This document shows, in pieces, positions 1-63,739 of a DNA stretch of 64,000 nt. Made by a program: the position numbers and the translations under genes. Under the pieces are notes generated by a model. The model saw only the letters and a list, made by a program, of their open reading frames with translations, did no database searches and was not told where the DNA came from. The stretch lies in the NCBI GenBank assembly GCA_963693285.1, contig OY848920.1, positions 10,166,182 to 10,230,181 of the forward strand, read 5' to 3'. Within the stretch, counting starts at the first letter, position 1; every line of letters begins with the position of its first letter. This DNA comes from Xestospongia muta (taxonomy: Eukaryota > Porifera > Demospongiae > Haplosclerida > Petrosiidae).

Positions 1-1682
1 ATTCCTGGAGACTTAGACGTGCTGTAACTGTACGACAAAACTCCTCAATAGCATCTTCATAAGCTTTAATGTGAACATCAGCTTCTTCAACATTAAATTG
101 GTCAACAATGGCTTTTAAAATGTTAATATCAATCAATGTACATTTAACTTTGACAATTTCTAGTACACCATCAAGTGTGTTAGTGCTGGTACGTGATAAT
201 TGAGGGGTGAGGTCAGGATAACAATCTTGGAGAAATGTTTTCAAGTTTTCACAAGTTACAGACATCTCTTTAATAACATTTCGAATTTTGTTAAAGGTTG
301 TTCCAAATTTTACTCTCATTGAATTAAATGTGGGACTCATACTTCGTGGAACAAAAATCCCATCTATAACATAGTACATATTATTACATGAATATACAGG
401 ATATTACCTTGAACAGACTCATTGCTTACATGAGATAGACTATGAGAAGATACTACAATAAGAGATATAACAGGATAATAATATTAATACTAACAAACCA
501 TACCTTCACTGAGTAATGGTTTAGTGTGTGTTGTTCTGTCTTCAAATGATTGCTCTATAATTTTAGTAATATTTTAAAATTACATTATGTAATCAACTTT
601 ATAACTTACTGTAGTCATTCATTATGACATCACCTAATTGTATATTATCAGTGAATCTTTGAAGTACACTGGCAAACACTTTTAGGTTTTGATAGTTGCT
701 ATGGACAGCACCACGTACAGCTTTTAGTAGTGATATTAATGGCTGAGTAGATATAGTTAGTGTATCATCTGAAATGACTCCCTCTCCATGAAGTAGTTCT
801 GCTACTTGAACTGGATATTGAAGAGATTGAGAGAGAGTACCATAATGACAACGTAAAATGTCACTGGCATGATCTTCACAACTACTATGACCTGTCATGA
901 CTACCTTTTGAACATTAGCTATTGTTGTCTGGTCTTCTGGAAATTTTTGACCTTTTAATAATGAAATGTTAAAATAAATTATTAAAATTAATGATATCTC
1001 ACTATATTCACTGATAATTCTCTCAGATAGAACTTTTGTCTCCTCAACCTTGGACAGTACTGTAGCTACTACTTTCAACTTCCTGTGGTCTGAAGATACT
1101 GCTGTATGTATAGCAGATAACAGAGTTGTCTTCTTCTCATTCAGAATACCCTCCATTGTCTCCATTACATCAAGTGTTTCTTCACTGATACATCTCTCAC
1201 TAAATAAGAGCTGGGACACTTTTACAGGATTGATCAGACATTGTGATAGTGTATCAGTATGGTGCCAAAGAATAACAATTGCTTCAGTAGCTGAGGAGTC
1301 CATTCCTGTAATAAAAATAATGACACACACACTATCTTATCAACCAGATTCACTCACCATCAGAGATACAACATTTTCTTAACATGACCAACTCATATTT
1401 ATGAGCAACAGTGTTTTCTTCAATAACTTCTTTCTTCAAAGTATCTACAACTTGTCTTCTGGTAGCATTAGGGTTGGTGTTCAACCACAACTCAAACATT
1501 TTTAATGTCTTGTAAGTAGAATCATCAGGTTGTCTACGAATATCATCCAACTTCTTGGAATCAAGTTTAAGCAGGATTCCAAACTGATACCATTTACCAC
1601 CAATGTGAATATGTTCACATAATTCATCAAGAGATGGTTTCTTTTTTAATAATTTCTCAAATAAAAGATTTCTTGCAGTCAT
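1..1682 (-). CDS. U0: death domain/CARD-like receptor-type gene, 5' part only
   Basis: This is the 5' portion of the repeated gene family, read leftwards and cut by the window edge. Exons are 1682-1358, 1305-1003, 951-610, 554-504, 452-408 and 363-1 (open). Exon 1 encodes a death domain, with a W-Y-Q-F-G helix-2 motif and the typical K-x-F-E-L-W-L segment. Exons 2 and 3 each encode a CARD-like helical bundle. Exon 6 starts the unnamed domain in its type A form (begins DGIFVPRSM). All phases join (325, 303, 342, 51 and 45 nt, each ending in phase 1). The start is the first ATG of the open frame; upstream the frame stays open without an ATG. Its coiled coil and C-terminus lie outside the window. 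The role is unknown; adaptor or sensor signalling through death-fold domains is inferred. Confidence 0.8.
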
Positions 1683-1784
1683 TGCTTCTTCGTCAGAGAC
1701 AACACACCCACTGGTGACCTTTTGGGTGGGGCTCACCTAGGACCACACCTTCTAATATTTTTAACCCTTTTATGTCAAGCTGCA
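1683..1784. promoter_or_regulatory. Shared divergent promoter between U0 and RABL3-like gene
   Basis: Only 102 bp separate the ATG of the leftward death-domain gene from the ATG of the rightward RABL3-like reading frame, so one short segment must serve both starts. It holds GGGTGGGGC at 1724-1732, a KLF/Sp-type box that recurs at the same place in U1, U2, U3, U5 and U6. No TATA box is evident near either start. That the segment is a bidirectional promoter is inferred from the geometry. Confidence 0.5.
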
Positions 1785-3450: not shown

Positions 3451-4244
3451 TTACTGGAAAACAAGTCTGTCTTTAATAACTTGATAATTGTCTAACTTTA
3501 TACAATACTCTTCATGTTGACTTGATAAGTATAGTTCCCTTATTGTAGTATTTTTAGTTAGTGATGTGCATATTGTCTTGATATCATCATTGTTCAGTGA
3601 AGTATCGTAGAGATATAGTCTTGTCAATGATGTAGTAGTTTGTATTAGATCTGCTATTGTACTGGTACTAACTGAAGTGATCTGACGATTACGTCCGATG
3701 TTCAACTTAGTCAATGTTTGGTTTTTAATAAGTCCTTTACAGATATATCGGACTCCATTATCAGTGATGTTACAGTTGAAGAGACATAGCTCTTTTAAAG
3801 TTGTATTAGTTGCTAACATAGTAGATAAGTGAGTCATATCTTCATCTGTGATACCAGTAACATTATACAACCATAACTGTACAAGTTTTTTATTATTACA
3901 GAGACTGTCACTGACTTGTTTGATACCACCAGTAAGTGAAGAGGAGTCCAGCCATAGTCTCTTTATTGTTTTATTAGTTTTTAGTATCTCTGATAATATC
4001 GATACACACTCACTGTCCAATGAAGTGTTCACTATATAAAGACTCCTCACTGTACACTTATTAAGATTGTTTATAATAACTGCAGTACTTTCAGGAGATG
4101 ATGAGAAGAGATCAATACTCCATTCTTTTCCTGTTTGTTCTTCTTTTGTTAATTTACTTATAACATCTTCACTTTCTACTACACTTGGTCCAGTCAGTAT
4201 AACTTTATTGTCATCATCATCCCACAGAACACTTCCAGTGTCTC

Positions 4245-6017
4245 CTGTTATAAAACAGAGTTAGTATATAGTATAGTACACACATAGTAATATATACTAT
4301 AACACACTACAATACACAGACAATACACTGAAGAAGAAAGGAAGCCATTACTGTTTACAGACTATGGTTACTATGGTAACGAGTTATAGGGGCTTATTAA
4401 AAACTTATGCTAACAGGAAGAGGCCACTGCATGGCTACAGAATTATTTAATTAGTTAATCACAGAATTACTACCAAATGTTGATATGGCGACAAGTAGAT
4501 TGCTTTGACAATCAATAAAGGAAAAATAACATCTTGTCTATAATAACCAATAATCATTCATAATAGTGCTCCACCCACATATGTTATATAATTCCATATA
4601 TTGTATAACAGGAAACTTTCAAGACATAATTCGTTTTGTTACTAACTATTTGTCTGTTTACATTAACACTGTGATACTATCCAAAATAATGTCAGTTATT
4701 GTCCTCTACTGACAAATATAGTGAAGAGACAGCAGTTGTTTGTAAAAGAGGCTATGTATGAATTAAGTCAACTTTTAAGTTAGTATTGTAACATAAAAGC
4801 TTTGTATAAAGCAATGACGATAATGTTTACAGTGTATGAAATAAGTGGGTGTGGTTATTAATACATTAGAGATTTGTATACTGAAGTCACAAAAGGAAAT
4901 GAAACAACTACGATAATGTTTAAACTGACACATCACTATAGAAACACTGTACATAAAGTATTATAATAGTGTTGAAGTACTAGTTGTGTTGTTATGTTTT
5001 GAGACTCAAAGAATGTCTACTTCATAGATCTACATGGTTTCCCCAATGATCATTACATGTAGTCTTAGATATCTCCTCAGTCTATATCTGCTGATATTAT
5101 TACATATAGAGATATCATATATAGGTGATGTCAATGTAAATTTAAATTTATGCATTTTAACATTACAATATAAGTGTATAGTGTTTTTGTTATTGTGATA
5201 TTTCCTCCATTTTATTGACTCTTTCATTGCTAGCTATTTTCTTGAGCAGGCATATAGTAAAATGTCTGTTGTTGGTGTGTGAAGACTTATGAAAAAATAT
5301 CTAATTAATTATTCATAAAGGCGTGGTCACCATATACAAACTTCAGGTTAGGACATTTAGTATATCTTCTTTACTCAGTTTTTGTTCTCTTAAAAGCATT
5401 TTCTCTCTATTTGTCACATTGTACTCAATAGTTGATATAACTGTTTTATATTTTTATAAATAATTATTCTAGGGATTTCCCCTCAGTTTCTTCTCTAATT
5501 AAGGATCTATGGAGAGTTTGCAGTTCCTTGGTCTCATCCCCAGATGCCAACTTGCTTAATGTGGGGAAAGGCACCTGGTGACTTTAGTCCAATTCCTTGT
5601 ATTTAAACCAATTTTTTGACTCACCAATCAGAATACTCCTAGGGTATGATGTTATAAATGTCACTGTCAAATCTGAGGAATTGAACTAAAGTTACTAGAT
5701 GTCCTTTCTCGAACTAAGTTAGTAGACGTCTGGGGATGAGACTAACAGTTCCTGTGATACATATTCCTAATCTCACAAAAGGAGGAAGGGTTTAATAAAC
5801 CATATACATAATAAATATTGTCTACAGGATACTTTTTATGTAAACCACAAACTACATAATAACACTGTGTATTCACACCCACAACCATTACTAGTAGACA
5901 AAACAAATTATTGTTATGATACTAACATTGGAGAATGTAATGGATTATATTAGTATATTACATCAATAAACATTCTTTTTACTTTGTTATAATAATACAA
6001 ATTACAATATAACCTAC
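4245..6017. other. Expanded last intron of U1
   Basis: This 1.77-kb interval lies between the fused linker exon and the LRR exon; in U2 and U3 the same intron is only about 330 bp. Apart from the MITE at 5529-5745 I see no coding sequence. It contains diverged AT-rich sequence that resembles the 39.7-40.1 kb region in places, such as short stretches around 5,230-5,460 and 39,770-40,000. Confidence 0.45.
5529..5745. mobile_element. 217-bp MITE in U1 intron
   Basis: The direct repeats CAGTTCCT at 5521-5528 and 5746-5753 flank an element whose ends are inverted copies of GTCTCATCCCCAGA. The 8-bp duplication fits hAT- or MULE-type transposition, but the ends do not let me choose. It has no coding capacity. 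Diverged relatives of this end sequence appear near 25,405 and 33,507. Confidence 0.7.
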
Positions 6018-9000
6018 TTGGATGAGGTAAGGAACTGTCTTCAGTTATTGATTTACGAGTCTTTGGTATGAATGCTAGATCTAGTAACAATGTCATATAA
6101 TGAGAAGTGACTAATACCAGTTACCTTTCAAGCTCTGCTTTAACTCCTCAATCTGTTGGTCTCTCTCCCTTAGTTGTAAAGTCAATGACGTTATTATTTC
6201 TTGTAGTGTCTCTAGCTCTTTCTGTCTCTCAGCAGACACTGACTGTATATTCTTCTCAAAAGCTTTATATAAAATGAGAAGAAAATTGATCACTAATATA
6301 TTATGTAAAATACTGACAACATTGGACTTGTGATTGCTGTTGTATAAATTTACCTTCCTTTGTTTTCACAAGTGATGTCAAGTGTTCAATTGTTTTTTCT
6401 TTCATTTCTCTTGTTTCTATATAAAGGAACATTAAGTTATTAATCAGATATTTCATATAATAGACAGCTATTAAATAAAACAGTAGTTGTACACAATATA
6501 CCTTCATTTTGTCTGACAATAGATGACATTTGTATAGTCATCTTTTTCCGCATGGTTTGTTCTAGTTCAAGTCGACTTCTCAACTCCTTTGTGTTCTCTT
6601 CTACAATAGCTCTAACCTCCTATATACCAATAAACAACACATGTAGTAACTGTTGTCTAATACTACTCATCTCTAACCTTGTCTCTTCTATGATCATAAA
6701 TGGTATAGTGACCAATTGTAAGTTGTAGTAATCCTCTCCTCTTCAATGATTCAAGAGTCTCCTGAGCTCTGGCAATAAGTAGAGTTGTTAGATTGAGTGG
6801 AAAAAAACAAGTGACAATGATGGAGTTGCCTTTTGCTAAGTAACGAATCTCCACATCTCTTTCAAATGATTCTGAAAGGATATCCTCGATATCTTCTAAT
6901 GTACAATCTTTAGGATTCCAATTCAAGACAAAGACAGCTGTCTCACATTGGAGAAGAGCAGGAGTGTTTGTAACTTTAAAACTTTCGTTTAAACAAAGAG
7001 AAGCTTTTATTTCTTTACAAAATGACTGAACAACATCTTTGTATGCTTGTATATGTGTCTCAGCTTCTTTGATTTTGAAGTGCTTCACAATACCCTCTAA
7101 ACAACTGATATTGATCAATGTACAATGATCATTAACAACATCTAGAACATCATCAATGGAGGCAGAATGAGCTATTTGAGATTTGAGGTGGGAATAACCA
7201 TCTTTAAGAAATTGTTTCAATTCATCCAGAGGTGGAGGCGTTTTGTTGATAGCTTTTCGGATATTACTGAAGGCTATTGCATATTCTCTTTTAATTGATC
7301 CAAAAATATGCCCAACCTTTCGAGGAATTCTAACTTCCTTTAATACATTATCTGTAATTAGTAATAGTAATTAGTAATTAGTTCTCCTACATTCTTGTAA
7401 TACTAACTTTGACTTGAAGCTGAACTGTTTTCATTTGAAACTGTAGATAATGTTAGGTCTAATAAGTGATCTTTCAATGACAATTTATCAATATAAATTA
7501 TTACCTTGACTTAAACTGCTATTAACTGAAGCTACTGGTGTAGTAGTTGATGAATTATCTAATTTGACTCAATGATATTATGATCTTAATGTATCATATT
7601 ATACCTTCACTAACTACAGTATTAATAGAGTGTTCATCCAATATTTCATTACTAGGAAATGCCTTCTCTATGTCAATATTAGTGTTATAATTATAAATCA
7701 TATGTACTTACCATAATCCTTCAACATATCCTTAGCACATGGTACATTGCTAGTAATTTTTAACAGTACACTAGCAAATACTACAAGGTTACTATGGTTA
7801 CTATGTACAGCATGACGTATAGCTCTTAACAGGACAAACAATGCTTTTTCTTCAGACTGAGATTCTGCAGTACTTCTTACTGTAGAAAAAGTTGCTTGTG
7901 AAATAACTCTCTCTCCACAGAGCACCTCTGCTACTCTAACAGGATATTGAAGAGATTGAGAGAGAGTACCATAATGACAACGTAAAATGTCACTGGCACG
8001 AACTATAATAAAATAAATAAAATTTATAAATACAGTTCACTTATAAATCTACCACTATAATCAGATGTTTGTTCTAAATCATGTCTCTCCTTCTTCCTTT
8101 TTAAATCCTCATCCGATATCTCTTTATCTTCTAGTGGTCGCTTTCCACTTGGATTTAACACATCCCACTTTGTCATCACATTAGATTCCTGTGACACCAT
8201 AGTAACATCTAGTAGTAGTAATTGTACATACAGTAACCTTATAAGTAGTGTCCTCTGATGTAATCCAATTTCCAGATTCTGTAACCTCCATTGTATCATT
8301 AAGACTTGTTGTTCCTATCTCTTGAGCAATATCAGTCTTCATCTGGTCATATATCTGAGCTATAGACATTCAAGAGAAAATACCACCATTAAACCAGGTA
8401 ATATGAAATTGTTCTCTCACTATATTCACTGATAATTGTTTCAGATAGAATTTTAGACTCCTTAAATTTGGACAGTACTGTAGCTACTATTTTCAACTTC
8501 TTGTGATCTGAAGATATTGCTGTATGTATAGCAGATAACAGAGTTGTCTTCTTCTCATTCAGAATACCCTCCATTGTCTCCATTACATCAAGTGTTTCTT
8601 CACTGATACATCTCTCACTAAATAAGAGCTGGGACACTTTTACAGGATTGATCAGACACTGTGATAGTGTATCAGTATGGTGCCAAAGAATAACAATTGC
8701 TTCAGTAGCTGAGGAGTCCATTCCTGTAATAAAAATAATGACACACACTATCTTATCAACCAGATTCACTCACCATCAGAGATACAATATTTTCTTAATA
8801 TGACCAACTCATACTCATGAGCAACAGTGATTTCTTTGATGACTTCCTTCCTTAAAGCATCTACCACTTGTCTTCTGGTAGCATTAGGGTTGGTATCTAA
8901 CCACAACTCAAACATTCTTGATGTTTTGTAAGTAGAATCTTCTGGTAACTTTTGAATATCATCTCGCAACTTCTTAGGATCCAGTTTTAACAGGATTCCT

Positions 9001-9142
9001 AACTGATATCATTTACTACCAATACGAATATGTTCACATAATTCATCAAGAGTTGGTTTCTCTTCTAATAATTTCTCAAAAGAAAGATTTCTTGCAGCCA
9101 TTGCTTCTTCGTTGAAGACAATACGCCCACTGGTGATCTTTT

Positions 9143-9151
9143 GGGTGGGGC
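9143..9151. promoter_or_regulatory. KLF/Sp-like box upstream of U1
   Basis: GGGTGGGGC is found about 40-50 bp before the ATG of U1. The same box is at 1724-1732 (U0), 15976-15984 (U2), 24146-24154 (U3), 32319-32327 (U5) and 36940-36948 (U6). In U7 the corresponding site near 44909 is changed to AGGTGAGGC. Its function is inferred from conservation and position only. Confidence 0.4.
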
Positions 9152-9602
9152 TCATGTAACCCAACCGCTCCTAGCCGGAACAAAATTAATATTCATAATG
9201 GGCGTGGTCTCCATAATTATTATAATTATACATTTTAAATGAATAATAAACAGTAATAAAACATAATACAAATTATATTGTTGCTCAGTTCGGACTAGTG
9301 AGAACTGTGATGGACTCAATCTAATCTAGGAAACACTTGCTTTACAAACACAAAGACAATCTTTATATTCCTCTCCTACAAGAATATATAAATAAACATA
9401 AAGAATGCAGTAACAATTGTTATTGTCAATATCATAATGATATAAATGTACTCTTAGCTACATTATGCTGCATATGCTTGATAAAAAGATTGTAGAATCT
9501 CTGCATACAGGAAGGGGCTAAGGTGATACAACTAACAGTGATCTACAATCAACTAAACAGTAATTGACAAAACTAATATGAAGTAAATTACATATTTTAT
9601 AG
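9152..9602. other. Non-coding start of the alternative intergenic segment
   Basis: After the U1 promoter the sequence is homologous to 36,949-37,410, beginning with a GCTCCTAGCCGGA stretch, and not to the RABL3/FKBP module. I see no gene in it. Confidence 0.4.
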
Positions 9603-11959: not shown

Positions 11960-14900
11960 TTACGAGAACTCAAGTCTGTCTTTAATAACTTGATAACTGT
12001 CTAACTTCATACAATACTCTTTATGTTCTCTTGATAACCATAGTTTCCATATTGTAATATTTTTAGTTAGTGATGTACATATTGCCTTGATATCATCATT
12101 GTTCAGTGAAGTATTGTCGAGAAGTAGTGTTGTCAGTGATGTAGTAGTTTGTATTAGATCTGCTATTGTACTGGTACTAACTGAAGTGATCTGAGGATTA
12201 TGTCCGATGTTCAACAAAGTCAATGTTTGGTTTTTAGTAAGTCCTTCACAGATATATTGGACTCCATTATCAGTGATGTTACAGTTGTAGAGACATAGTA
12301 CTTTTAAAGTTGTATTAGTTGCTAATATAGTAGATAAGTGAGTCATATCTTCATCTGTGATATCAGTAACATTAGCTAACACTAACTGTTCAAGTGTTTC
12401 ATTATTACAGAGACTATCACTGACTTGTTTGATACCACCAGTAAGTGAAGAGGACACCAGCTCTAGTCTCTTTATTGTTTTATTAGTTTTTAGTATCTCT
12501 GATAATATCGATACACACTTACTGTCCAATGAAGTGTTGTATATATAAAGTCTCCACACTGTACACTTATTAAGATTGTTTATAATAACTGCAGTACTTT
12601 CAGGAGATGATGAGTTGAGATCAATACTCCATTCTTTTCCTGTTTGTTGTTCTTTTATTAATTTACTTATAACATCTTCACTTTGTGCTACACTTGGTCT
12701 AGTGAGCCATACACTATTGTTAACATCTCTCCACTGAAAATCATACCACTGAACACTTCCAGTGTCTCCTATTATAAAACAGAGTTAGTATATAGTATAG
12801 TACACACATAGTAATATATACTATAACACACTACAATACATAGACAACACACTGAAGAAGAAAGGAAGCCATTACTGTTTACTGAATATGGTTACTATGG
12901 CAACGAGCTAATAGAGGCGGGGCTTATTATTAAATTTTGCTAACAGGAAGAGTCTACTGAGTGTTGATATTGCTACAGAAGAACAATAAATATAATTCTA
13001 TCATTGCTATCATATTAACTAAAGGATTGTATTAGTATATTACATCAATAAACATTCTTTTTACTTTGTTATAATAATACAAATTACAATATAACCTACT
13101 TGGATGAGGTAATGAACTGTCTTCTTTATCATTAACTGAACCCTTTAACTGATCTTTTAACTCTGATATTGGTAGAGATTCTACAAGAGTATTATAAGAC
13201 TATTTATATATATTGAATAGTACTACCTGTAGTTTCAGTGATAAGTGATGTCTCTTCCTGACTGGACTGTGTTTGAGTCTCCTCAAATCCTTGATCAGTT
13301 ACTGGTTTACGAGTCTTTGGTATGAATGCTAGATCTAGTAACAATGTCATATAATGAGAAGTGACTAATACCAGTTACCTTTCAAGCTCTGCTTTAACTC
13401 CTCAATCTGTTGGTCTCTCTCCCTTAGTTGTAAAGTCATTGACGTTATTATTTCTTGTAGTGTCTCTAGCTCTTTCTGTCTCTCAGCAGACACTGACAGT
13501 ATATTCTTCTCAAATGCTTTATATAAAATGAGAAGACAATTGATCACTAATATATTATGTAAAATACTGACAACATTGGACTTGTGATTGCTGTTGTATT
13601 AATTTACCTTCCTTTGTTTTCACAAGTGACGTCAAATGTTCAATTGTTTTTTCTTTCATTTCTCTTGTTTCTATATAAAGGAACATTAAGTTATTAATCA
13701 GATATATCATATAATAGACAGCTATTAAATAAAACAATAGTTGTACACAATATACCTTCATTTTGTCTGACAATAGATGATATTTGTATAGTCATCTTTT
13801 TTCGCATGGTTTGTTCTAGTTCCAGTTGACTTCTCAACTCCTTTGTGTTCTCTTCTACAATAGTTCTAACCTCCTATGTATCAATAAACAACACATGTAG
13901 TAACTGTTGTCTAATACTACTCATCTCTTACCTTGTCTCTTCTATGATCATAAATGGTACAGTGACCAATTGTAAGATGTAGTAATCCTCTCCTCTTCAA
14001 TGATTCAAGAGTCTCCTGAGCTTTGGCAATAAGTAAAGTTGTCAGACTGAGTGGAAAGGTACAGGTCACAATGATGGAGTTACCCTCAGTCACAATAATT
14101 ACTTTAACTCTTTTATTTAATCTTTCAAAGGCAACTGACAAAAGGTTTTTAATGTCAGTCAGTGAAGTCTTGTCAGGATCCCATTCGAGAACAAATTTAG
14201 CAGTCTCACATTTGAGAGGAGAACTGTTGGACACCACAAGAGATTCCTGGAGGCTTAAACGTGTTGTTACTGTATGACAAAACTCCTCGATAGCATCTTC
14301 ATAAGCTTTAATGTGAACATCAGCTTTTGTAATACTAAATCTCTTGGCAATAGCCTTTAAAATACCAATGTCAATCAATGTACATTTTTCTTTAACAATT
14401 TCCAGTATGTCATCAAGTGTATTACTGCTGGTACGAGCTAACTGAGGACTGAAGTCAGGATAACAATTTCGGAGGAAGGTTTTTAATTTTTCTAAATTTA
14501 CAGACGTCTCTTCAATAGCATCTTGGATTTCACTAAATGTTGTTCCAAATTTTACTCTCATTGAATTAAATGTGGGACTCATACTTCGTGGAACAAAAAT
14601 CCCATCTATGACATAGTACATATTATTACATGAATATACAGGATATTACCTTGAACAGACTCATTGCTTACATGAGATAGACTATGAGAAGATACTACAA
14701 TAAGAGATATAACAGGATAATAATATTAATACTAACAAATTATACCTTCACTGAGTAATGGTTTAGTGTGTGTTGTTCTGTCTTCAAATGATTGCTCTAT
14801 AATTTTAGTAATATTTTAAAATTACATTATGTAATCAACTTTATAGCTTACTGTAGTCATTCATTATGACATCACCTAATTGTATATTATCAGTGAATCT

Positions 14901-20019: not shown

Positions 20020-23000
20020 TTACACGAACTCAAGTCTGTCTTTAATAACTTGATAACTGTCTAACTTCATACAATACTCTTTATGTTCTCTTGATAAGTA
20101 TAGTTTCCTTATTGTAGTATTATTATTAAGTGATGTGCATATTGTCTTGATATCATCATTGTTCAGTGAAGTATAGTCGAGACGTAGTTCTGTCAGTGAT
20201 GTAGTAGTTTGTATTAGATCTGCTATTGTACTGGTACTAACTGAAGTGATCTGACGATTATCTCCGATGTCTAACGTAGTCAATGTTTGGTTTTTAGTAA
20301 GTCCTTCACAGATATATCGGACTCCATTATCAGTGATGTTACAGTTGGGGAGATGTAGTAGTTTTAAAGTTGTATTAGTTGCTAACATAGTAGATAAGTG
20401 AGTCATATCTTCATCTGTGATATCAGTAACATTCCACAACAATAACTCTTCAAGTGTTTCATTATTACAGAGACTGTCACTGACTTGTTTGATACCACCA
20501 GTAAGTGAAGAGGAGTCCAGCTGTAGTGTCTTTATTGTTTTATTAGTTTTTAGTATCTCTGATAATATCGATACACACTTACTGTCCAATGAAGTGTCCT
20601 GTATATAAAGACACCTCACTGTACACTTATTAAGATTGTTTATAATAACTGCAGTACTTTCAGGAGATGATGAAAAGAGATCAATACTCCATTCTTTTCC
20701 TGTTTGTTGTTCTTTTATTAATTTACTTATAACATCTTCACTTTGTACTACACTTGGTCTAGTGAGTCTAACACTATTGATATCATCTCTCCACTGAACA
20801 CTTCCAGTGTCTCCTATTATAAAACAGAGTTAGTATATAGTATAGTACACACATAGTAATATATACTATAACACACTACAATACATAGACAACACACTGA
20901 AGAAGAAAGGAAGCCATTACTGTTTACTGAATATGGTTACTATGGCAACGAGCTAATAGAGGCGGGGCTTATTATTAAATTTTGCTAACAGGAAGAGTCT
21001 ACTGAGTGTTGATATTACTACAGAAGAACAATAAATATAATTCTATCATTGCTATCATATTAACTAAAGGATTGTATTAGTATATTACATCAATAAACAT
21101 TCTTTTTACTTTGTTATAATAATACTAATTACAATATAACCTACTTGGATGAGGTAATGAACTGTCTTCTTTATCATCAACTGAACCCTTTAACTGATCT
21201 TTTAACTCTGATATTAGTAGAGATTCTACAAGAGTATTATAAGACTATTTATATATATTGAATAGTACTACCTGTAGTTTCAGTGATAAGTGATGTCTCT
21301 TCCTGACTGGACTGTGTTTGAGTCTCCTCAAGTCCTTGATCAGTTACTGGTTTACGAGTCTTTGGTATGAATGCTAGATCTAGTAACAATGTCATATAAT
21401 GAGAAGTGACTAATACCAGTTACCTTTCAAGCTCTGCTTTAAATCCTCAATCTGTTGGTCTCTCTCCCTTAGTTGTAAAGTCATTGACGTTATTATTTCT
21501 TGTAGTGTCTCTAGCTCTTTCTGTCTCTCAGCAGACACTGACAGTATATTCTTCTCAAAAGCTTTATATAAAATGAGAAGAAAGTTGATCACTAATATAT
21601 TATGTAAAATACTGATAACATTGGACTTGTGATTGCTGTTGTATTAATTTACCTTCCTTTGTTTTCACAAGTGACGTCAAATTTTCAATTGTTTTTTCTT
21701 TCATTTCTCTTGTTTCTATATAAAGGAACATTAAGTTATTAATCAGATATATCATATAATAGACAGCTATTAAATAAAACAGTAGTTGTACACAATATAC
21801 CTTCATTTTGTCTGACAATAGATGACATTTGTATAGTCATCTTTTTACGCATGGTTTGTTCTAGTTCCAGTCTACTTCTCAACTCCTTTGTGTTCTCTTC
21901 TACAATAGTTCTAACCTCCTATATATCAATAAACAACACATGTAGTAACTGTTGTCTAATACTACTCATCTCTTACCTTGTCTATTCTATGATCATAAAT
22001 GGTACAGTGACCAACTGTAAGTTGTAGTAATCCTCTCCTCTTCAATGATTCAAGAGTCTCCTGAGCTTTAGCAATAAGTAGAGTTGTTAGACTGAGTGGA
22101 AAAAAACAAGTGACAATGATGGAGTTGCCTTTTGCTAAGTAACGAATCTCCACATCTCTTTCAAATGACTCTGAAAGGATATCCTCAATATCTTCTAATG
22201 TACAATCTTTAGGATTCCAGTTCAAAACAAAGACAGCTGACTCACATTGCAGAAGAGCAGGAGTATTTGCAACTCTAAAACTTTCGTTTAGACAAAGAGA
22301 AGCTTTTGTTTCTTTACAAAATGATTGAACAAAGTCCTTGTATGTTTGTATATGTATCTCAGCTTCTTTGATTTTGAATCGTGTTACAATACCCTCCAGA
22401 CAACTGATATTGATCAATGTACAATGATCATTAACAACATCTAGAACATCATCAATGGAGTTGGAATGAGCTATTTGAGATTTGAGGTGGGAATAACCAT
22501 CTTTAAGAAATCGTTTTAATTTATCCAGAGATGGAGGCGTTATGTTGATAGCTTCTCGGATATTACTGAAGGCTATTGCATATTCTCTTTTAATTGATCC
22601 AAAAATAGGCCCAAACTTTCTAGGAATCGTAACTTCCTTTAATACATTATCTGTAATTAGTAACAATAAATAGTTCTACTATATTCTTGTAATACTAACC
22701 TTGACTTGAAGCTGAACTGTTTTCATTTGAAACTGTAGATAATGTTAGGTCTAATAAGTGATCTTTCAATGACAATTTATCAATATAAATTATTACCTTG
22801 ACTTAAACTGCTATCAACTGAAGCTACTGATGTAGTAGTTGATGAATTATCTAATTTAACTTAATGATATTATGATCTTAATGTATCATATTATACCTTC
22901 ACTAACTACAGTATTAATTGAGTGTACATCCAATATTTCATTATTAGGAAATGCCTTCTCTGTGTCAATATTAGTGTTTTTGATTATAAATCTATGTACT

Positions 23001-24325: not shown

Positions 24326-25667
24326 TTACCAGAACACAAGTCTGTCTTTAATAACTTGATAACTGTCTAACTTCTTACAATACTCTTTATGTTCTTTTGA
24401 TAAGTGTAGTTCTCTTATTGTAGTATTTTTAGTTAGTGATGTGCATATTGTCTTGATATCATCATTGTTAAGTGAAGTATCATAGAGATATAGTCTTGTC
24501 AATGATGTAGTAGTTTGTATTAGATCTGCTATTGCACTGGTACTAACTGAAGTGATCTGATGATTACCTCCGATGTGCAACTTAGTCAATGTTTGGTTTT
24601 TAGTAAGTCCTTCACAGATATATTGGACTCCATTATCAGTGATGTTACAGTTGTAGAGATATAGTACTTTTAAAGTTGTATTAGTTGCTAACATAGTAGA
24701 TAAGTGAGTCATATCTTCATCTGTGATATCGGTAACATTATACAACACTAACTCCTCAAGTGTTCTATTATTAAAGAGACTATCACTGACTTTTTTGATA
24801 CCACCAGTAAGTGAAGAGGAGTACAGCACTAGTCTCTTTACTGTTTTATTAGTTTTTAGTATCTCTGATAATATCAATACACACTTACTGTCCAATGAAG
24901 TGTTCTCAATATCAAGACTCCACACTGTACACTTATTGAGATTGTTGATAATAACTGCAGTACTTTCAGGAGATGATGAGATGAGACGAATACTCCATTC
25001 TTTTCCTGTTTGTTGTTCTTTTATTAATTTACTTATAACATCTTCACTTTCTACTACACTTGGTCCAGTGAGTCTAACAATATTGCGATGATGATACCTC
25101 CGAACACTTCCAGTGTCTCCTGTTATAAAATAGAGTTAGTACATAGTATAGTACACACATAGTAATGTATACTATAACACACTACAATACACAGATAACA
25201 CACTAAAGAAGAAAGGAAGCCATTACTGTTTACTGAATTTTTGTCAAGGAAAATAATACCTTATCTAAAATATCATCAGTTATTTAAAAAGACTAAGGTT
25301 CGGTTTGTATTAAAGGACAATTTACAAATTAAACATTTGTAAATAAATTTTTGGGTACATTTTACTTAGACTATTATTATGGATTTTCTTTTAAAGCAAT
25401 TAGTCTCATTCTCAGATGCTCACTTGCTTATTGCAACTGCATACAAGAAGCAACATTTTTTAAGGGCATTATTAAATGTTATTGTCTTATGAGAGAAGTC
25501 TATTGCTATTAAGAAATAACTGTTAGGATCACAATTATAAGATGCCATTTTTATAATAATATTATCTTGTTTGCAGTTATCATAGCTAACAATGACATTT
25601 GTTCAAAGATACATACTTTCATTTGACTCTTTATCATCAGAATCCTTCAATATGTCATCTGGAGACT
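24326..25667 (-). pseudogene. U4: LRR exon and acidic linker exon only
   Basis: LRR exon 25119-24326 is open for its full 794 nt and ends in the usual TAA. A short acidic exon, 25667-25617, reads ESPDDILKDSDDKES and ends before a GTATGT donor; U6 and U7 have the same extra exon. No coiled-coil, unnamed-domain or death-domain exon is found upstream. The sequence to the right is unrelated and carries a transposon at 25,959. U4 is a 5'-truncated member, although its LRR exon is nearly identical to that of U6. Confidence 0.75.
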
Positions 25668-28195: not shown

Positions 28196-31100
28196 TTACA
28201 CGAACACAAGTCTGTCTTTAATAACTTGATAACTGTCTAACTTCTTACAATACTCTTTATGTTCTCTTGATAAGTATAGTTTCCTTATTGTAGTATTTTT
28301 AGTTAGTGATGTGCATATTGTCTTGATATCATCATTGTTCAGTGAAGTATAGTAGAGAGATAGTGTTATCAGTGATGTAGTAGTTTGTATTAGATCTGCT
28401 ATTGTACTGGTACTAACTGAAGTGATCTGATGATTATGACTGATGTTCAATGTAGTCAATGTTTGGTTTTTAGTAAGTCCTTCACAGATATATCGGACTC
28501 CATTATCAGTGATGTTACAGTTGGAGAGACGTAGTTCTTTTAAAGTTGTATTAGTTGCTAACATAGTAGATAAGCGAGTCATATCTTCATCTGTGATACC
28601 AGTAACATTATACAACTCTAACAGTTCAAGTGTTTCATTATTACAGAGACTATCACTGACTTGTTTGATACCACAAGTAAGTGAAGAGGAGTGCAGCTCT
28701 AGTCTCTTTATTGTTTTATTAGTTTTTAGTATCTCTGATAATATCGATACACACTTATTGTCCAATGAAGTGTCACATATATAAAGTCTCCACACTGTAC
28801 ACTTATTAAGATTGTTTATAATAACTGCAGTACTTTCAAGAGATGATGAGGAGAGACTAATACTCCATTCTTTTCCTGTTTGTTGTTCTTTTATTAATTT
28901 ACTTATAACATCTTCAGTTTGTGCTAAACTTGGTCTAGTGAGCCGTACACTATTGTCATCATCATACCACTGAACACTTCCAGTGTCTCCTGTTATAAAA
29001 CAGAGTTAGTATATAGTATAGTACACACATAGTAATATATACTATAACACACTACAATACACAGACAACACACTGAAGAAGAAAGGAAGCCATTACTGTT
29101 TACAGAATATGGTTACTATGGCAACGAGCTAATAGAAGCGGGGCTTATTATTAAATTTTGCTAACAAAAAGAGACTACTGAGTGTTGATATTACTACAGA
29201 ACAATAAATATAATTCTATCATTGCTATCATATTAACTAAAGGATTGTATTAGTATATTACATCAATAAACATTCTTTTTATTTTGTTGTGATAATACAA
29301 ATTATAATATAACCTACTTGGATGAGGCAATGAACTGTCTTCTTTATCATCAACTGAACCCTTTAACTGATCTTTTAACTCTGATATTGGTAGAGATTCT
29401 ACAAGAGTATTATAAGACTATTTATATATATTGAATAGTACTACCTGTAGTTTCAGTGATAAGTGATGTCTCTTCCTGACTGGACTGTGTTTGAGTCTCC
29501 TCAAGTCCTTGATCAGTTACTGGTTTACGAGTCTTTGGTATGAATGCTAGATCTAGTAACAATGTCATATAATGAGAAGTGACTAATACCAGTTACCTTT
29601 CAAGCTCTGCTTTAACTCCTCAATCTGTTGGTCTCTCTCCCTTAGTTGCAAAGTCAACGACGTTATTATTTCTTGTAGTGTCTCTAGCTCTTTCTGTCTC
29701 TCAGTAGACACTGACAGTATATTCTTCTCAATAGCTTTATATAAAATGAGAAGAAAATTAATCATTAATATATTATGTAAAATACTGACAACATTGGACT
29801 TGTGATTGCTGTTGTATTAATTTACCTTCCTTTGTTTTCACAAGTGACGTCAAATGTTCAATTGTCTTTTCTTTCATTTCTCTTGTTTCTATATAAAGGA
29901 ACATTAAGTTATTAATCAGATATATCATATAATAGACAGCTATTAAATAAAACAGTAGTTGTACACAATATACCTTCATTTTGTCTGATAATAGATGACA
30001 TTTGTATAGTCATCTTTTTCCGCATGGTTTGTTCTAGTTCCAGTTGACTTCTCAACTCCTTTGTGTTCTCTTCTACAATAGTTTTAACCTCCTATATATC
30101 AATAAACAACACATGTAGTAACTGTTGTCTAATACTACTCATCTCTTACCTTGTCTCTTCTATGATCATAAATGGTACAGTGACCAATTGTAAGTTGTAG
30201 TAATCCTCTCCTCTTCACTGAATCAAGAGTTTCCTGAGCTTTGGCAATAAGTAGAGTTGTTAGACTGAGTGGAAAAAAGCAGGTGACAATGATGGAGTTG
30301 CCTTTTGCTAAGTAACGAATCTCCACATCTCTTTCAAATGACTCTGAAAGGATATCCTTGATATCTTCTAATGTACAATCTTTAGGATTCCAGTTCAAAA
30401 CAAAGACTGCTGTCTCACATTGCAGAAGAGCAGGAGTGTTTGTAACTCTAAAACGTTCATTTAGACAAAGAGAAGCTTTTGTTTTTTTACAAAATGATTG
30501 AACAAAGTTCTTGTATGTTTGTATATGTGTCTCAGCTTCTTTGATTTTGAATCGTGTTACAATACCCTCTAAACAACTGATATTGATCAGTGTACAATGA
30601 TCATTAACAACATCTAGAACTTCATCAATGGAGTTAGAATGAGCTATTTGAGATTTGAGGTGGGAATAACCATCTCTAAGAAATCGTTTCAATTTATCCA
30701 GAGGTGGAGGTGTTATGTTGATAGCTTCTCGGATATTACTGAAGGCTATTGCATATTCTCTTTTAATTGATCCAAAAATAGGCCCAAACTTTCTAGGAAT
30801 CGTAACTTCCTTTAACACATTATCTACAATTAGTAACAATAAATAGTTCTCCTATATTCTTGTAATACTAACCTTGACTTGAAGCTGAACTGTTTTCATT
30901 TGAAACTGTAGATAATGTTAGGTCTAATAAGTGATCTTTCAATGACAATTTATCAATATAAATTATTACCTTGACTTAAACTGCTATCAACTGAAGCTAC
31001 TGATGTAGTAGTTGATGAATTATCTAATTTAACTCAATGATATTATGATCTTAATGTATCATATTATACCTTCACTAACTACAGTATTAATTGAGTGTTC

Positions 31101-32498: not shown

Positions 32499-35400
32499 TT
32501 ACCAGAACACAAGTCTGTCTTTAATAACTTGATAACTGTCTAACTTCTTACAATACTCTTTATGTTCTTTTGATAAGTGTAGTTCTCTTATTGTAGTATT
32601 TTTAGTTAGTGATGTGCATATTGTCTTGATATCATCATTGTTCAGTGAAGTATCGTAGAGATATAGTCTTGTCAATGATGTAGTAGTTTGTATTAGATCT
32701 GCTATTGTACTGGTACTAACTGAAGTGATCTGATGATTACCTCCGATGTGCAACTTAGTCAATGTTTGGTTTTTAGTAAGTCCTTCACAGATATATCGGA
32801 CTCCATTATCAGTGATGTTACAGTTGTAGAGATATAGTACTTTTAAAGTTGTATTAGTTGCTAATATAGTAGATAAGTGAGTCATATCTTCATCTGTGAT
32901 ATCGGTAACATTATACAACACTAACTCCTCAAGTGTTCTATTATTAAAGAGACTATCACTGACTTTTTTGATACCACCAGTAAGTGAAGAGGAGTACAGC
33001 ACTAGTCTCTTTACTGTTTTATTAGTTTTTAGTATCTCTGATAATATCGATACACACTTACTGTCCAATGAAGTGTTCTCAATATCAAGACTCCACACTG
33101 TACACTTATTGAGATTGTTGATAATAACTGCAGTACTTTCAGGAGATGATGAGATGAGACGAATACTCCATTCTTTTCCTGTTTGTTGTTCTTTTATTAA
33201 TTTACTTATAACATCTTCACTTTCTACTACACTTGGTCCAGTGAGTCTAACAATATTGCGATGATGATACCTCCGAACACTTCCAGTGTCTCCTGTTATA
33301 AAATAGAGTTAGTATATAGTATAGTACCATTACTGTTTACTGAATTTGGTCAAGGAAAATAATACCTTATCTAATATAATCATCAGTTATTTAAAAAGAC
33401 TAAGATATCAGTTTGCATTGAAGGACAATTTACAAATTAAACATTTGTAAATAAATTTTTGGGTACAGTTTACTTAGACTATTATTATGAATTTTCTTTT
33501 AAAGCAATTAGTCTCATTCTCAGATGCTCACTTGCTTATTGCAACTGCATACAAGAAGCAACATTTTTTAAGGGCATTATTAAATGTTATTGTCTTATGA
33601 GAGAAGTCTATTGCTATTAAGAAATAACTGTTAGCATCATAATTATAAGATGCCATTTTTATAATAATTATGATCTTGTTTGCAGTTATCATAGCTAACA
33701 ATGACATTTGTTCCAAGATACATACCTTCATTTGACTCTTTATCCTCTGACTCTTTATCATCAGAATCCTTCAATATGTCATCTGGAGACTCTATTGATA
33801 AGACATTTACATTAGAATAAACCAAGATTATTCATAATTTTAATATTTATAATTTAAGGATTATCAATATATTATTACTGACAACACTATCACTTTGTGG
33901 TAGTAATTTATGACTGAATTATGACATCATTCAGTACAACCATTACTAGTAGACAAATAAATTACTGTAATGATACTAACATTGAAGAATGTAATGGATT
34001 GTATTAGTATATTACATCAATAAACATTCTTTTTACTTTGTTATAATGATACAAATTACAATATAACCTACTTGGATGAGGTAATGAACTGTCTTCTTTA
34101 TCATCAACTGAACCCTTTAACTGATCTTTTAACTCTGATATTGGTAGAGATTTGAGAGTATTATAAGACTATTTATATATATTGAATAGTACTACCTGTA
34201 GTTTCAATGATAAGTGATGTCTCTTCCTGACTGGACTGTGTTTGAGTCTCCTCAAGTCCTTGATCAGTTACTGGTTTATGAGTCTTTAGTATGAACTCTA
34301 AATCTACCAACAATGTCATATAATGAGAAGTGACTAATACCAGTTACCTTTCAAGCTCTGCTTTAACTCCTCAATCTGTTGGTCTCTCTCCCTTAGTTGT
34401 AAAGTCAATGACGTTATTATTTCTTGTAGTGTCTCTAGTTCTTTCTGTCTCTCAGCAGACACTAACAGTATATTCTTCTCAATAGCTTTATATAAAATGA
34501 GAAGAAAATTGATCACTAATATATTATGTAAGATAATGACAACATTGGACTTGTGATTGCTGTTGTATTAATTTACCTTCCTTTGTTTTCACAAGTGATG
34601 TCAAATTTTCAATTGTTTTTTCTTTCATTTCTCTTGTTTCTATATAAAAGAACATTAAGCTATTAATCAGATATATCATATAATAGACAGCTATTAAATA
34701 AAACAGTAGTTGTACACAATATACCTTCATTTTGTCTGACAATAGATGACATTTGTATAGTCATCTTTTTCCGCATGGTTTGTTCTAGTTCCAGTCTACT
34801 TCTCAACTCCTTTGTATTCTCTTCTACAATAGCTCTAACCTCCTATATATCAATAAACAACACATGTAGTAACTGTTGTCTAATACTACTCATCTCTTAC
34901 CTTGTCTCTTCTATGATCATAAATGGTACAGTGACCAACTGTAAGTTGTAGTAATCCTCTCCTCTTCAATGATTCAAGAGTCTCCTGAGTTTTGGCAATA
35001 AGTAAAGTTGTCAGACTGAGTGGAAAGGTACAGGTCATGATGATGGAGTTACCCTCAGTCACAATAATTACTTTAACTCTTTTATTTAATCGTTCAAAGG
35101 CAACTGACAAAAGGTTTTTAATGTCAGTCAGCGAAGTCTTGTCAGGATCCCATTCAAGAACAAATTTAGCAGTCTCGCATTTCAGAGGAGAACTGTTGGA
35201 CACCACAAGAGATTCCTGGAGGCTTAAACGTGTTGTTACTGTATGACAAAACTCTTCAATAGCATCTTCATAAATTTTAATGTGAACATCAGCTTTTGTA
35301 ATAGTAAATCTCTTGGCAATAGCTTTTAAAATACCAATGTCAATCAATGTACATTTCTCTTTAACAATTTCCAGTATGTCATCAAGTGTATGACTGCTAG

Positions 35401-40460: not shown

Positions 40461-43400
40461 TCAATCATCATATTGTATGCTGACTGTTTTCCCAACAGCA
40501 AAGAGCTTGACATCGCTAGCACCTGCTCTATGCATTAGACTTGCACAAGCTCGAAGAGTAGAGCCAGAGATCCATATATCATCAATAATGTAGACCACTT
40601 TATCCTTGACTTTGGATGGATCTGTAACTTGGATAGTCTCCTCATGAAGACTTTGATCTCGTGGTCCACCTTGAGCTGACTTTGGAACTTTTCTTGTACG
40701 AATCAACAGGTCCCTACCGTCCTTTATGTTGCCATGAATAAGCCTTCCAACAATTGCATGCAAAAAATTTGGAGATGATTGTGGAGAATGACCTGGAGCA
40801 ATTGCTATAACAATATCTTTGTTATCTAGAATTCCTTTCAGCCAGTCTTTTATTCTCTGCTGAAGATCTTCAACATTATCGCTTTCATAGCCCATTTTCA
40901 GATAAACCAATGATTGTGAATCGCTTCCAGGATAGTGGTTTGGGTTTTTTCCGCCGTAGTATGGATGATACTCCATAAAGTAATCTTCCATTCCAAAACA
41001 CAACTTATTCTGTCTGAACTGTGTTTGTGTTCCTCGATCAGTTACTGGTATATGACCCTTTGATATGAATGCTAGATTTAGTAACATTGTCATATAATGA
41101 GAAGTGAGTAATACCAGTTACCTTTTAAGCTCTGCTTTAACTCCTCAATCTGTTGGTCTCTCTCTCTTAGCTGTAAAGTCAATGACATTATTATTTCTTG
41201 TGGTGTCTCTAGCTCTTTCTGTCTCTCAGCAGACACTGACTGTATATTCTTCTCAATAGCTTTATATAAAATGAGGATCTGATAAACTATGCATATACCT
41301 AATAAATGTTGTCTTTATCTATAAAATTCTTTTTAGATAAACCACACAACATTAACATATTAACATATATAACATTAAACAGACCCTTCATTAAAGGCTA
41401 TTATGACTAGTAACTTGATCATAAGCTCTTAATTTAAGCAAGTTTTTTTAGACTGTAACTAACTGGAGAGATACAAGTAGCAACCATTTTTCACAGGCAT
41501 CTTGTGCAAACATTAGATGTTATTGTCTTATGAGAGAAGTCTAATGCTATCAAGAAATATACATACCTACATACCTTTCATTGACTCTTTATCATCAGAG
41601 TCTTTCAATATGTCATCTGGAGATTCTATTAATAAAGACATTTATATTAGAATAAACCAGATTATTCATAATTTTTAATATTTATAATTTAAGGATTATC
41701 AATATATTATTACTGACAACACTATCACTTTGTGGTAGTAATTTATGACTGAATCATGACATCATTCAGTACAACCATTACTAGTAGACAAAACAAATTA
41801 CTGTAATGATACTAACATTGAAGAATGTAATGGATTGTATTAGTATATTACATCAATATACATTCTTTTTACTTTGTTATAATAATACAAATTACAATAT
41901 AACCTACTTGGATGAGGTAATGAACTGTCTTCTTTATCATCAACTGAACCCTTTAACTGATCTTTTAACTCTGATATTGATAGAGATTCTACAAGAGTAT
42001 TATAAGACTATTTATATATATTGAATAGTACTACCTGTAGTTTCAGTGATAAGTGATGTCTCTTCCTGACTGGACTGTGTTTGAGTCTCCTCAAGTCCTT
42101 GATCAGTTACTGGTTTACGAGTCTTTGATACGAACACTAGATCTAGTAACAATGTCATATAATGAGAAGTGACTAATACCAGTTACCTTTCAAGCTCTGC
42201 TTTAACTTCTCAATCTGTTGGTCTCTCTCCCTTAGTTGTAAAGTCAATGATGTTAGTATTTCTTGTAGTGTCTCTAGCTCTTTCTGTCTCTCAGCAGACA
42301 CTGACAGTATATTCTTCTCAAAAGCTTTATTAAAAATGAGAAGAAAATTAATCGTTAATATATTATGTAAAATACTGATAACATTGGACTTGTGATTGCT
42401 GTTGTATTAATTTACCTTCCTTTGTTTTCACAAGTGATGTTAAATTTTCAATTGTCTTTTCTTTCATTTCTCTCGTTTCTATATAAAGGAACATTAAGTT
42501 ATTAATCAGATATATCATATAATAGACAGCTATTAAATAAAACAGTAGTTGTACACAATATACCTTCATTTTGTCTGACAATAGATGACATTTGTATAGT
42601 CATCTTTTTCCGCATGGTTTGCTCTAGTTCCAGTCGACTTCTCAACTCCTTTGTGTTCTCTTCTACAATAGTTCTAACCTCCTATATATCAATAAACAAC
42701 ACATGTAGTAACTGTTGTCTAATACTACTCATCTCTTACCTTGTCTCTTCTGTGATCATAAATGATACAGTGACCAATTATAAGTTGTAGTAATCCTCTC
42801 CTCTTCACTGATTCAAGTGTCTCCTGAGCTTTGGCAATAAGTGAAGTTGTTAGACTGAGTGGAAAAAAACAAGTGACAATGATGGAGTTGCCTTTTGCTA
42901 AGTAACGAATCTCCACATCTCTTTCAAATGATTCTGAAAGGATATCCTCAATATCTTCTAATGTACAATCTTTAGGATTCCAGTTCAAGACAAAGACAGC
43001 TGTCTCACATTGGAGAAGAGCAGGAGCGTTTGTAACTTTAAAACTTTTGTTTAGACAAAGAGAAGCTTTTGTTTTTTTACAAAATGATTGAACAAAGTTC
43101 TTGTATGTTTGTATATGTGTCTCAGCTTCTTTGATTTTGAATCGTGTTACAATACCCTCTAAACAACTGATATTGATCAATGTACAATGATCATTAACAA
43201 CATCTAGAACATCATCAATGGAGTTAGAATGAGCTATTTGAGATTTGAGGTGGGAATAACCATCTTTAAGAAATCGTTTCAATTTATCCAGAGGTGGAGG
43301 TGTTATGTTGATAGCTTCTCGGATATTACTGAAGGCTATTGCATATTCTCTTTTAATTGATCCAAAAATACGCCCAAACTTTCGAGGAATCGTAACTTCC

Positions 43401-55210: not shown

Positions 55211-55350
55211 AAAAAAATGAAGAAAAAATCAGTAATATACAGACAATTTTCTTATAATTTGAGTTATAATATAATTAGTAGAATGAAACAAATCACATAG
55301 TAGGCAGTACTCTTCTATTATTATTAATGTGAAAAGTTAAAAAAATACAC
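55211..55350. other. Transposase 3' flank
   Basis: AT-rich spacer between the transposase stop and the right satellite; likely 3' UTR. No gene is seen. Confidence 0.4.
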
Positions 55351-62417: not shown

Positions 62418-63217
62418 CTAACTATTACAGAACACAAGTCTGTCTTTAATAGCTTGATAACTGTCTAACTTCTTACAATACTCGTAATGTCGACTTGATA
62501 AGTATAGTTTCCTTATTGTAGTATTTTTAGTTAGTGATGTACATATTGTCTTGATATCATCATTGTTCAGTGAAGTATAGTCGAGATCTAGTGTTGTCAG
62601 TGATGTAGTACTTTGTGTTAGATCTGCTATTGTACTGGTACTAACTGAAGTGATATGATAATTATGACTGATGTTCAACGCAGTCAATGTTTGGTTTTTA
62701 GTAAGTCCTTCACAGATATATCGGACTCCATTATCAGTGATGTTACAGTTGGAGAGACATAGTTCTTTTAAAGTTGTATTAGTTGCTAATATAGTAGATA
62801 AGTGAGTCATATCTTCATCTGTGATACCAGTAACATCAGACAACAATAACTCTTCAAGCGTTTCATTATTACAGAGACTATCACTGACTTGTTTGATACC
62901 ACCAGTAAGTGAAGAGGATGACAGCTCTAGTTTCTTTATTGTTTTATTAGTTTTTAGTATCTCTGATAATATCGATACACACTTACTGTCCAATGAAGTG
63001 TCTTGTATATCAAGACTCCTCACTGTACACTTATTAAGATTGTTTATAATAACTGCAGTACTCTCAGGAGATGATGATTCAAGAGTAATACTCCATTCTT
63101 TTCCTGTTTTTTGTTCTTTTATTAATTTACTTATAACATCTTCACTTTCTACTACACTTGGTCTAGTGAGACTAACAATATTGTCATCATCATACCACCG
63201 AATACTTCCAGTGTCTC
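62418..63217 (-). CDS. U8: LRR exon of the array family, 5' exons missing
   Basis: A single 800-nt open exon with the family acceptor (TTATAACAG) and phase. It encodes the 75-residue pre-LRR segment and seven LRRs with its own variable residues (LDIQDTS, KLELSS, LLLSDVT, ELCLSN). It ends in VFCNS then TAG, six bases later than in the other copies. The usual upstream exons are not found in the next 500 bp; a RecQ-like exon in the same orientation lies there instead. It may be a 3' fragment or the C-terminal exon of a different fusion. Confidence 0.65.
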
Positions 63218-63739
63218 CTGTTATAAAACAGAGTTAATATATAGTATAGTACACACATAGTAATATATACTATAACACACTACAATACATAGACAACACA
63301 CTGAAGAAGAAAGAAAGCCATTACTGTTTACTGAATATGATTACTATGGCAACGAGCTAATAGGAGGCGGGGCTTATTAAATTTTGCTAACAGGTAAAGT
63401 CTCTTGAGTACTGATATGGCTAGAAAGGAACAATAGATATAATTTTATCATTGCTATCACATTAACAGAACATATCACTGGATATCAGGTACTCATATAT
63501 CAACTGGAGACTTGTGATCTGTAGAGTTTACTGACTGACTAGTCTAGTCTCGTGAGTCAGACCCTTTGCTTAGAGAGGAAGGGTCTGGTCTACCACGCAT
63601 AGTGCAGTTGTCTCCTTCCCCAGCATTCCTGAGGAAACCACTATTTCGTCAACAGGTACTTGAGCAATCCACAATTGTTTACGTAGTTTCATAATAACAT
63701 AATGTGTTAGTTACTGCTAACGAAGTCTTCACGTATTAC
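63218..63739. other. Gap between U8 LRR exon and helicase exon
   Basis: Homologous to the last intron of U2 up to about 63,440, then unique. A hairpin, CAGACCCTT at 63558-63566 paired with AAGGGTCTG at 63579-63587, lies inside a short GC-richer stretch that may be a MITE remnant. No coiled-coil exon is found. Confidence 0.45.

Follow-up and report, generated by a model that had tools for sequence, protein, structure and literature searches.

Why do the leucine-rich repeat (LRR) exons of one gene family in a probable sponge keep a nearly constant backbone while changing so readily at the codons of a single face? The question arises from a 64-kb window (the whole stretch analysed here, C4:10166182-10230181 of a 158-Mb, 28-contig genome) that carries on its minus strand a tandem gene series, all genes following one exon plan with the LRR exon last. 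An original prediction, made from the letters of this window, held that its seven LRR exons vary almost only at predicted ligand-facing codons and belong to a recognition receptor family without a NACHT domain. The reading we favour, with a probability of roughly 70%, is that these genes, probably those of a demosponge, encode cytosolic-type signalling receptors whose recognition repertoire arose from exon-scale concerted evolution together with intense diversifying selection; their function and ligand are what we infer from the patterns described below.

All seven LRR exons of the window, designated U1 to U6 and U8, were recovered by sequence search (matches accepted at E up to 1e-4), and the motifs that had been quoted for repeats 1-3 were found on the minus strand when checked by eye. 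In the genome at least 143 copies of the exon were scored among 548 candidates, 142 of the 143 being free of internal stops, while at least 150 copies of the middle domain encoded upstream of it were scored among 617 candidates. The scored LRR copies are mostly located on C4 and the rest on C1, C2, C3, C7, C9, C12 and C14. Our main sample comprised 48 intact LRR exons, namely the seven of the window and 41 from 40 stretches elsewhere, which corresponded to the top 40 of 136 matches ordered by resemblance to U1. Full-length matches were selected and none has a stop in frame; the encoded proteins are 81-86% identical to that of U1 and the DNA sequences are all distinct. The tree, the site scan and the definition of 44 hypervariable codons (amino-acid entropy above 1 bit) were based on 46 copies, and ten more distant copies entered only the variability comparisons with distant members.

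Variation in this sample is concentrated on the predicted strands. Mean entropy in the 48 copies was 1.54, 2.24, 2.04 and 1.43 bits at positions x3, x5, x7 and x8, respectively, compared to 0.05-0.14 bits at L1, L4 and L6 and 0.31 bits elsewhere (permutation p=0.0001 for the excess at strand positions), and several of the x8 positions were restricted to N/D/H/Y. Thirty-one of 269 positions reached at least 1.5 bits among the 48 paralogues, and the same positions were variable among 32 non-redundant more distant members (Spearman 0.63). When only the seven window copies were considered, 82 of 269 columns were variable, including 27 of the 32 x3/x5/x7/x8 columns, as were 50 of the 205 columns outside the strands as delimited by us (19 in residues 1-45, 24 in residues 46-247 and 7 in residues 248-269). 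The predicted concentration at ligand-facing codons is thus present, but "almost only" was too strong a wording.

Selection follows the same division. Counts of nonsynonymous relative to synonymous divergence (dN/dS, NG86 method) gave 3.46 for x3/x5/x7 and 4.5 for x8, as opposed to 0.14 for L1/L4/L6, 0.67 for loops and helices and 1.35 for the whole exon; set against the dS of the whole exon, the value for the concave face was 7.6. Control exons from the window and the other stretches yielded 0.26-0.38 for the Death and middle domains, or 0.26-0.56 with the helical exons included. When the 46 copies were scanned on a single tree with a FUBAR-like method, positive selection (posterior probability above 0.95) was assigned to 49 of 269 codons, among them 27 of the 32 x3/x5/x7/x8 codons. 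Of the outward positions, x8 included, 33 of 39 were selected. None of the 22 inward positions was, and the other 208 positions contributed 16 (helices 7 of 113, loops 9 of 95). These counts include three additional strands of the model (residues 11-14, 19-23 and 266-268), in which outward residues 12, 14, 19, 23, 267 and 269 were selected and residue 21 was not; these seven residues were assigned by us, and faces were derived from strand alternation rather than from coordinates. Neutral and purifying simulations produced no false positives among the 269 codons in any of eight replicates, and a simulation with beta above alpha produced 52-269 calls in four replicates. Per-codon analysis therefore bears out the proposed diversifying selection at the predicted ligand face (33 of 39 outward positions, dN/dS 3.5), and neither an even spread over both faces nor a strand dN/dS below 1 was seen, both having been looked for as refuters. 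A raised synonymous divergence at strand leucines, suggested by counting (0.094 compared to 0.046 in loops), was absent in the site model (0.20-0.29 compared to 0.34) and was dropped.

The three additional strands come from the fold predicted for U1 (3451..4260, minus strand; match 3454-4260), the last exon of its gene, which is supported by its open reading frame (ORF), a match to Pfam LRR_6, an AlphaFold model and relatives with solved structures. The model is a ribonuclease inhibitor (RI)-type LRR with a predicted local distance difference test score (pLDDT) of 93.6, and the relatives by sequence and fold are the RI-type LRRs of ribonuclease inhibitor, NLRP and NOD2 proteins. This high-confidence model agrees with the predicted LRR structure. 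The exon is longer than originally given: positions 3451..4030 cover only part of it, since the open frame runs from 3451 to 4260, with the stop at 3451-3453 and the exon start after an AG acceptor near 4245. A search for an SH3 domain in the LRR exon gave no match at E up to 1.

The similarity between copies largely ends with the exon. Upstream diversity rises from ~0.04 over the first ~45 aligned bases to 0.09 up to ~85, 0.2 up to ~125 and ~0.4 beyond, and downstream diversity from 0.03 over the first 40 bases to 0.12-0.14 up to 160 and ~0.45 beyond 240 (multiple alignment of the flanks, supplemented by pairwise homology extents). Homology was lost within 200 bp on each side in 292 of the 946 pairs for which both sides were measured, with backbones still only 4.5% different. 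Similarly, the middle domains of these genes differ at up to 64% of residues, and the mean backbone distance was 3.0-4.1% in all four classes of middle-domain distance. In the pair W10178147 and W10198686 the middle domain and the following intron are 96-97% identical and the exon backbone differs by 3.3%, while forced alignments reached 52% identity over the final 300 bp of the intron, and 45% over 400 bp downstream. To set replacement of the entire exon against change in place in near-identical genes, four genes that share 95-99% identity over these final 300 bp were compared, and had a backbone distance of 0.023, compared to 0.035 in random quadruples (P=0.07). A uniform LRR exon across old, divergent genes requires exon-scale conversion or exchange, and on these sequence comparisons the exon must have been homogenised among the genes by such a process.

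Within the homogenised exon the contact codons change rapidly, as would receptors that are racing against the molecules they bind. Three gene pairs with introns that are 96.6-98.7% identical (L031/L030, W10178147/L043 and W10186207/W10194389) differ at 26-28 of the 44 hypervariable codons, close to the value for unrelated copies (28.9), and these codons have diverged 10-20 times more than the introns. The youngest pair (L009/L013) shows 8 differences in 5657 bp, three of which lie inside hypervariable codons. In five pairings of database proteins with our copies, which are 95-99% identical and represent alleles or other loci, 16 of 27 differences fell into hypervariable codons as defined on the same copies, a start-codon artefact at residue 71 having been excluded.

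Whether such changes are made codon by codon through templated exchange, a process that the original prediction named beside diversifying selection, was addressed by several comparisons. Differences of two and three bases are indeed present (0.204 and 0.032), without exceeding those under simulated point substitution (0.231 and 0.049), and saturation explains them. Only one of 1035 pairs passed a GENECONV-like test, and this at the threshold (200 permutations), while association between sites was gone beyond ~6 bp at hypervariable and conserved variable sites alike. Codon-scale templated exchange is not supported by these results and was rejected as needless on the multi-base and GENECONV-like tests. 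The pairwise homoplasy index (PHI) test gave a weak signal for conserved sites at 12 bp (p=0.021) that was lost at 30-100 bp. Its significance for hypervariable sites at 12-60 bp is, in our view, confounded because contact codons lie in clusters inside the repeats.

A broader version of this idea is that a targeted process, be it a mutator, hypermutation or reverse-transcription-like templated mutagenesis, rewrites the contact codons and selection merely filters the outcome. The missing linkage beyond ~6 bp would be expected under such a process, as would contact codons that look saturated at an intron divergence of ~1-3%, a star-like genealogy (internal branches 0.43 of 4.40), the excess of singletons among synonymous variants (48 of 82, with 19 expected) and diversity that is often limited to one codon position (|pi1-pi2| 0.253 observed, 0.133 simulated), although the last finds its simplest explanation in a limited choice of tolerated residues, e.g. 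N/D/H/Y at several x8 positions. We consider targeted rewriting improbable: contact codons do not show an increased synonymous rate (class means 0.22-0.36 compared to 0.34 elsewhere), so that mutation does not look locally elevated, and third positions are spared at several codons with highly variable first two bases. An adenine-directed form fails, as the consensus at the 75 positions with pi>0.3 is A at 26, G at 24, T at 18 and C at 7, and in this respect the variation, not being confined to adenines, differs from that made by diversity-generating retroelements. With neither an excess of multi-base changes nor a raised synonymous rate, nothing beyond ordinary mutation and very strong diversifying selection is needed, be it short templated patches or local hypermutation. 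We likewise give little credence to a bolder scheme for an early-branching animal, in which many Death/TRADD-N bodies repeatedly receive copies of one LRR cassette and the contact codons of the cassette are afterwards randomised faster than the rest of the gene, possibly by an active locus-directed mechanism, yielding a modular germline anticipatory repertoire. The contact-codon variants could also be old, held by balancing selection and shuffled by frequent short conversion, with the backbone alone being young. This would account for the lack of linkage across the exon, the recurrence of the same codons in many copies and a mean third-base diversity of 0.144 at x3/x5/x7/x8 compared to 0.042 in loops and helices. 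However, linkage persists over the 1-2 bp that separate the third base from its neighbours, so old variants should carry synonymous differences of their own; third-base diversity is 0.00 at codons 50, 78 and 190, the third-base excess lies under that of simulated point substitution with amino-acid selection (0.147 compared to 0.208), and a significant shared tract was found in one of 1035 pairs, which leaves this explanation unlikely in our view.

Solvent-exposed positions tolerate change in any LRR, and outward residues of no importance might simply have drifted under relaxed constraint. Neutral drift predicts a dN/dS of about 1, though, where 3.5-7.6 was observed; it does not fit hypervariable codons that outpace introns 10- to 20-fold in three gene pairs or helix positions that are hardly affected (7 of 113 selected), and it can hardly be the explanation. 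Sponges show strong allorecognition, and the diversification may serve specificity for self partners or allorecognition instead of pathogen recognition, a possibility with a small but real chance of being correct. The pattern resembles that of fungal het-d/het-e in combining concerted evolution with diversifying selection (PMC1805685), yet the intracellular-looking architecture fits a surface role poorly, signal peptides and membrane segments having been outside the search.

Selection for new recognition specificities on an exchanged exon remains our preferred reading. Under it, the more constant N-terminal part (the Death domain, two helical death-like exons and a TRADD-N-like domain) would signal, while the RI-type LRR of the last exon would bind its target through the concave face, an N-cap hairpin and a C-cap strand. 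Gene bodies would receive a working LRR scaffold by exon exchange, while the contact codons would rapidly diversify again under selection for new specificities, so that the germline would come to encode a repertoire of many dissimilar receptors. The ligands may be foreign or allogeneic molecules, the binding of which would trigger assembly through the death-fold domains. Several points weigh against this reading. Exchange violates the single-tree assumption of the site scan, though the tree-free counts agree, and the sampling of copies closest to U1 inflates backbone similarity. Some structure is left in the data: Mantel tests show a weak correlation of backbone with middle-domain distance (r 0.27-0.29, p 0.008-0.017), backbones are closer in the 86 pairs whose introns are homologous over more than 700 bp (3.5% different), and backbone and physical distance are weakly correlated as well (r 0.33, p 0.013). 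Exon-scale exchange is deduced from the discordance between divergence values, as the sampled pairs yielded no clear tract of recent date, and the recent duplicates at 24332 and 32505 differ at only 2 of the 44 hypervariable codons, one change being synonymous and the other off the strands. The TRADD-N identity of the middle domain, finally, depends on a profile match below threshold.

The exon order upstream of the LRR is Death (PF00531), two helical death-like exons, a middle domain of ~235 residues and apparent coiled-coil exons. In the gene ending in U1, all on the minus strand, these are the Death-domain exon at 8769..9155, the first helical, death-fold-like exon at 8338..8748 (its nature being tentative) and the second at 7707..7997 (both by homology), the middle domain at 6663..7370 and the apparent coiled-coil exons at 6121..6660, the latter recognised by eye from the sequence. 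The Death exon is a 76% identical homologue of that of the next gene downstream (1350..1736, minus strand; PF00531 E 5e-8, 33.3 bits, cut-off 22.6), and homologues occur at seven places in the window. The frame 599-1336, homologous to the first helical exon, had no Pfam family above cut-off, and a comparison of the helical exon with PDB sequences returned nothing below E 0.79, taken as noise. The gene ending in U2 encodes a middle domain of another type (13917..14645, minus strand; ORF and homology), which shares 50% identity with that of the U1 gene.

The middle domain is probably a divergent TRADD-N domain following a helical stretch, on the evidence of profile, model and an invariant serine. 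Among the Pfam families listed for the domain itself there was no match to TRADD-N, and a comparison of its profile with PDB gave E 0.002 or worse, mainly to heptad-repeat parts of coronavirus spikes, which we read as noise. In a 36% identical relative (L059, C4:7497440-7498240), the one examined out of 8 such genome matches, the second half matches NCOA6_TRADD-N (PF13820) at E 0.0067, below cut-off. The moderate-confidence model has the strand order expected for TRADD-N, and Ser183, invariant in 55 sequences, is the first residue of strand 183-191, which follows strand 174-180.

The remaining LRR exons, likewise on the minus strand, are U2 (11960..12784; match 11966-12784), U3 (20020..20829; match 20026-20829), U5 (28196..29005; match 28208-29005), U6 (32499..33308; match 32505-33308) and U8 (62418..63233; match 62430-63233), each identified by ORF and homology, the remainder of the U8 gene lying outside the window, and U4 (24326..25135; match 24332-25135), identified by homology in a segment duplicated at an offset of ~8.2 kb. 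No middle-domain exon was found between U4 and the next upstream LRR exon (28208-29005); this arrangement was left by the segmental duplication, and U4 could serve as an alternative last exon, the candidate gene being the one with its middle domain at 30138-30842. The gene at 44921-42728 has Death, helical and middle-domain exons, and no LRR exon of the family was found downstream of it at E up to 1e-4, where a phosphoribosyltransferase-like frame (40461-41117, PF00156) stands in its place. Two minisatellite arrays (45104-47347 and 55344-57444) consist of 126.7 and 123.7 copies of an 18-base unit, the units being mutually reverse complement, and the ~8 kb between them hold a 966-residue ORF with weak similarity to OTU proteases (E 0.021) and other ORFs. 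Together, the arrays and the stretch between them may form a large mobile element that ends in inverted satellites.

Scoring 102 of the 155 NACHT candidates in the genome gave 98 matches (97 over cut-off), and as none of them falls inside the window, the predicted lack of a NACHT domain there is supported. The nearest match on the same contig is at C4:8.37 Mb, ~1.8 Mb from the window, with none farther along C4; the profile also produced matches in control genomes (11 of 14), which exceeded the cut-off in three of them. NACHT matches were observed on C1, C2, C3, C4, C6, C12, C13 and others, many in open frames of ~700-1200 codons, and the genome also holds a sizeable NLR-like repertoire separate from the Death/LRR family. 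NLRs require a NACHT domain. The LRR family of the window, where no such domain was found, may be one of recognition receptors.

Both architecture and family expansion look to have been described already. Kaur et al. 2021 (eLife, PMC8195603), in the part of the paper available, report lineage-specific TRADD-N expansions in marine invertebrates, including an NCOA6 clade of the sponge Amphimedon with 357 copies, and propose an immune role. The architectures given there have N-terminal Death-like domains and a variable C-terminal domain, LRR preceded by SH3 being among the commonest, and a conserved serine at the beta2-beta3 turn of TRADD-N. The window genes fit this domain plan, with copy numbers in the hundreds and a counterpart of the serine, and by sequence likely belong to the same Death/TRADD-N expansion. 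What that part of the paper describes is architectures and TRADD-N entropy, as distinct from concave-face diversification, exon homogenisation and LRR linkage. PMC12909245 deals with Dysidea NLRs. Homologues carry the precomputed Pfam labels PF27087 and PF27089. Our search of the open-access literature found no report of concave-face selection, cap extension, exon-scale homogenisation or missing linkage, which does not prove that none exists.

As regards how the family evolves, it comes nearest to the highly variable NLRs (hvNLRs) of plants and to fungal het-d/het-e, a likeness drawn by analogy. According to PMC8226289, hvNLRs are defined by at least 10 positions above 1.5 bits, clustered on the predicted binding surface of the LRR; the present family has 31 such positions, albeit across paralogues of one genome and not alleles, and differs in that no NACHT domain was found with it in the window. 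The fungal NWD genes (PMC1805685) likewise combine concerted evolution with diversifying selection at few codons of an interaction surface, but exchange single WD40 repeats, whereas the unit in the present family is an entire LRR exon of RI type attached to a Death/TRADD-N-like body. The concave LRR face is the recognition surface in agnathan variable lymphocyte receptors (VLRs), NLRP3 and NOD2, as predicted here, and the RI-type fold of the last two is common to the window exon by fold match. VLRs are incomplete germline genes that are completed somatically, in contrast to the LRR exons of this family, which are complete in the germline.

These results point to an extensive set of receptors lacking NACHT in an animal that is probably a sponge, and map the residues likely to make contact to individual codons. 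The family makes anticipatory recognition in early animals, in parallel to plant hvNLRs, a testable proposition. The combination of a constant scaffold, unlinked contact codons and an exchangeable exon offers a clean case for how far selection alone can reach in generating receptor diversity.
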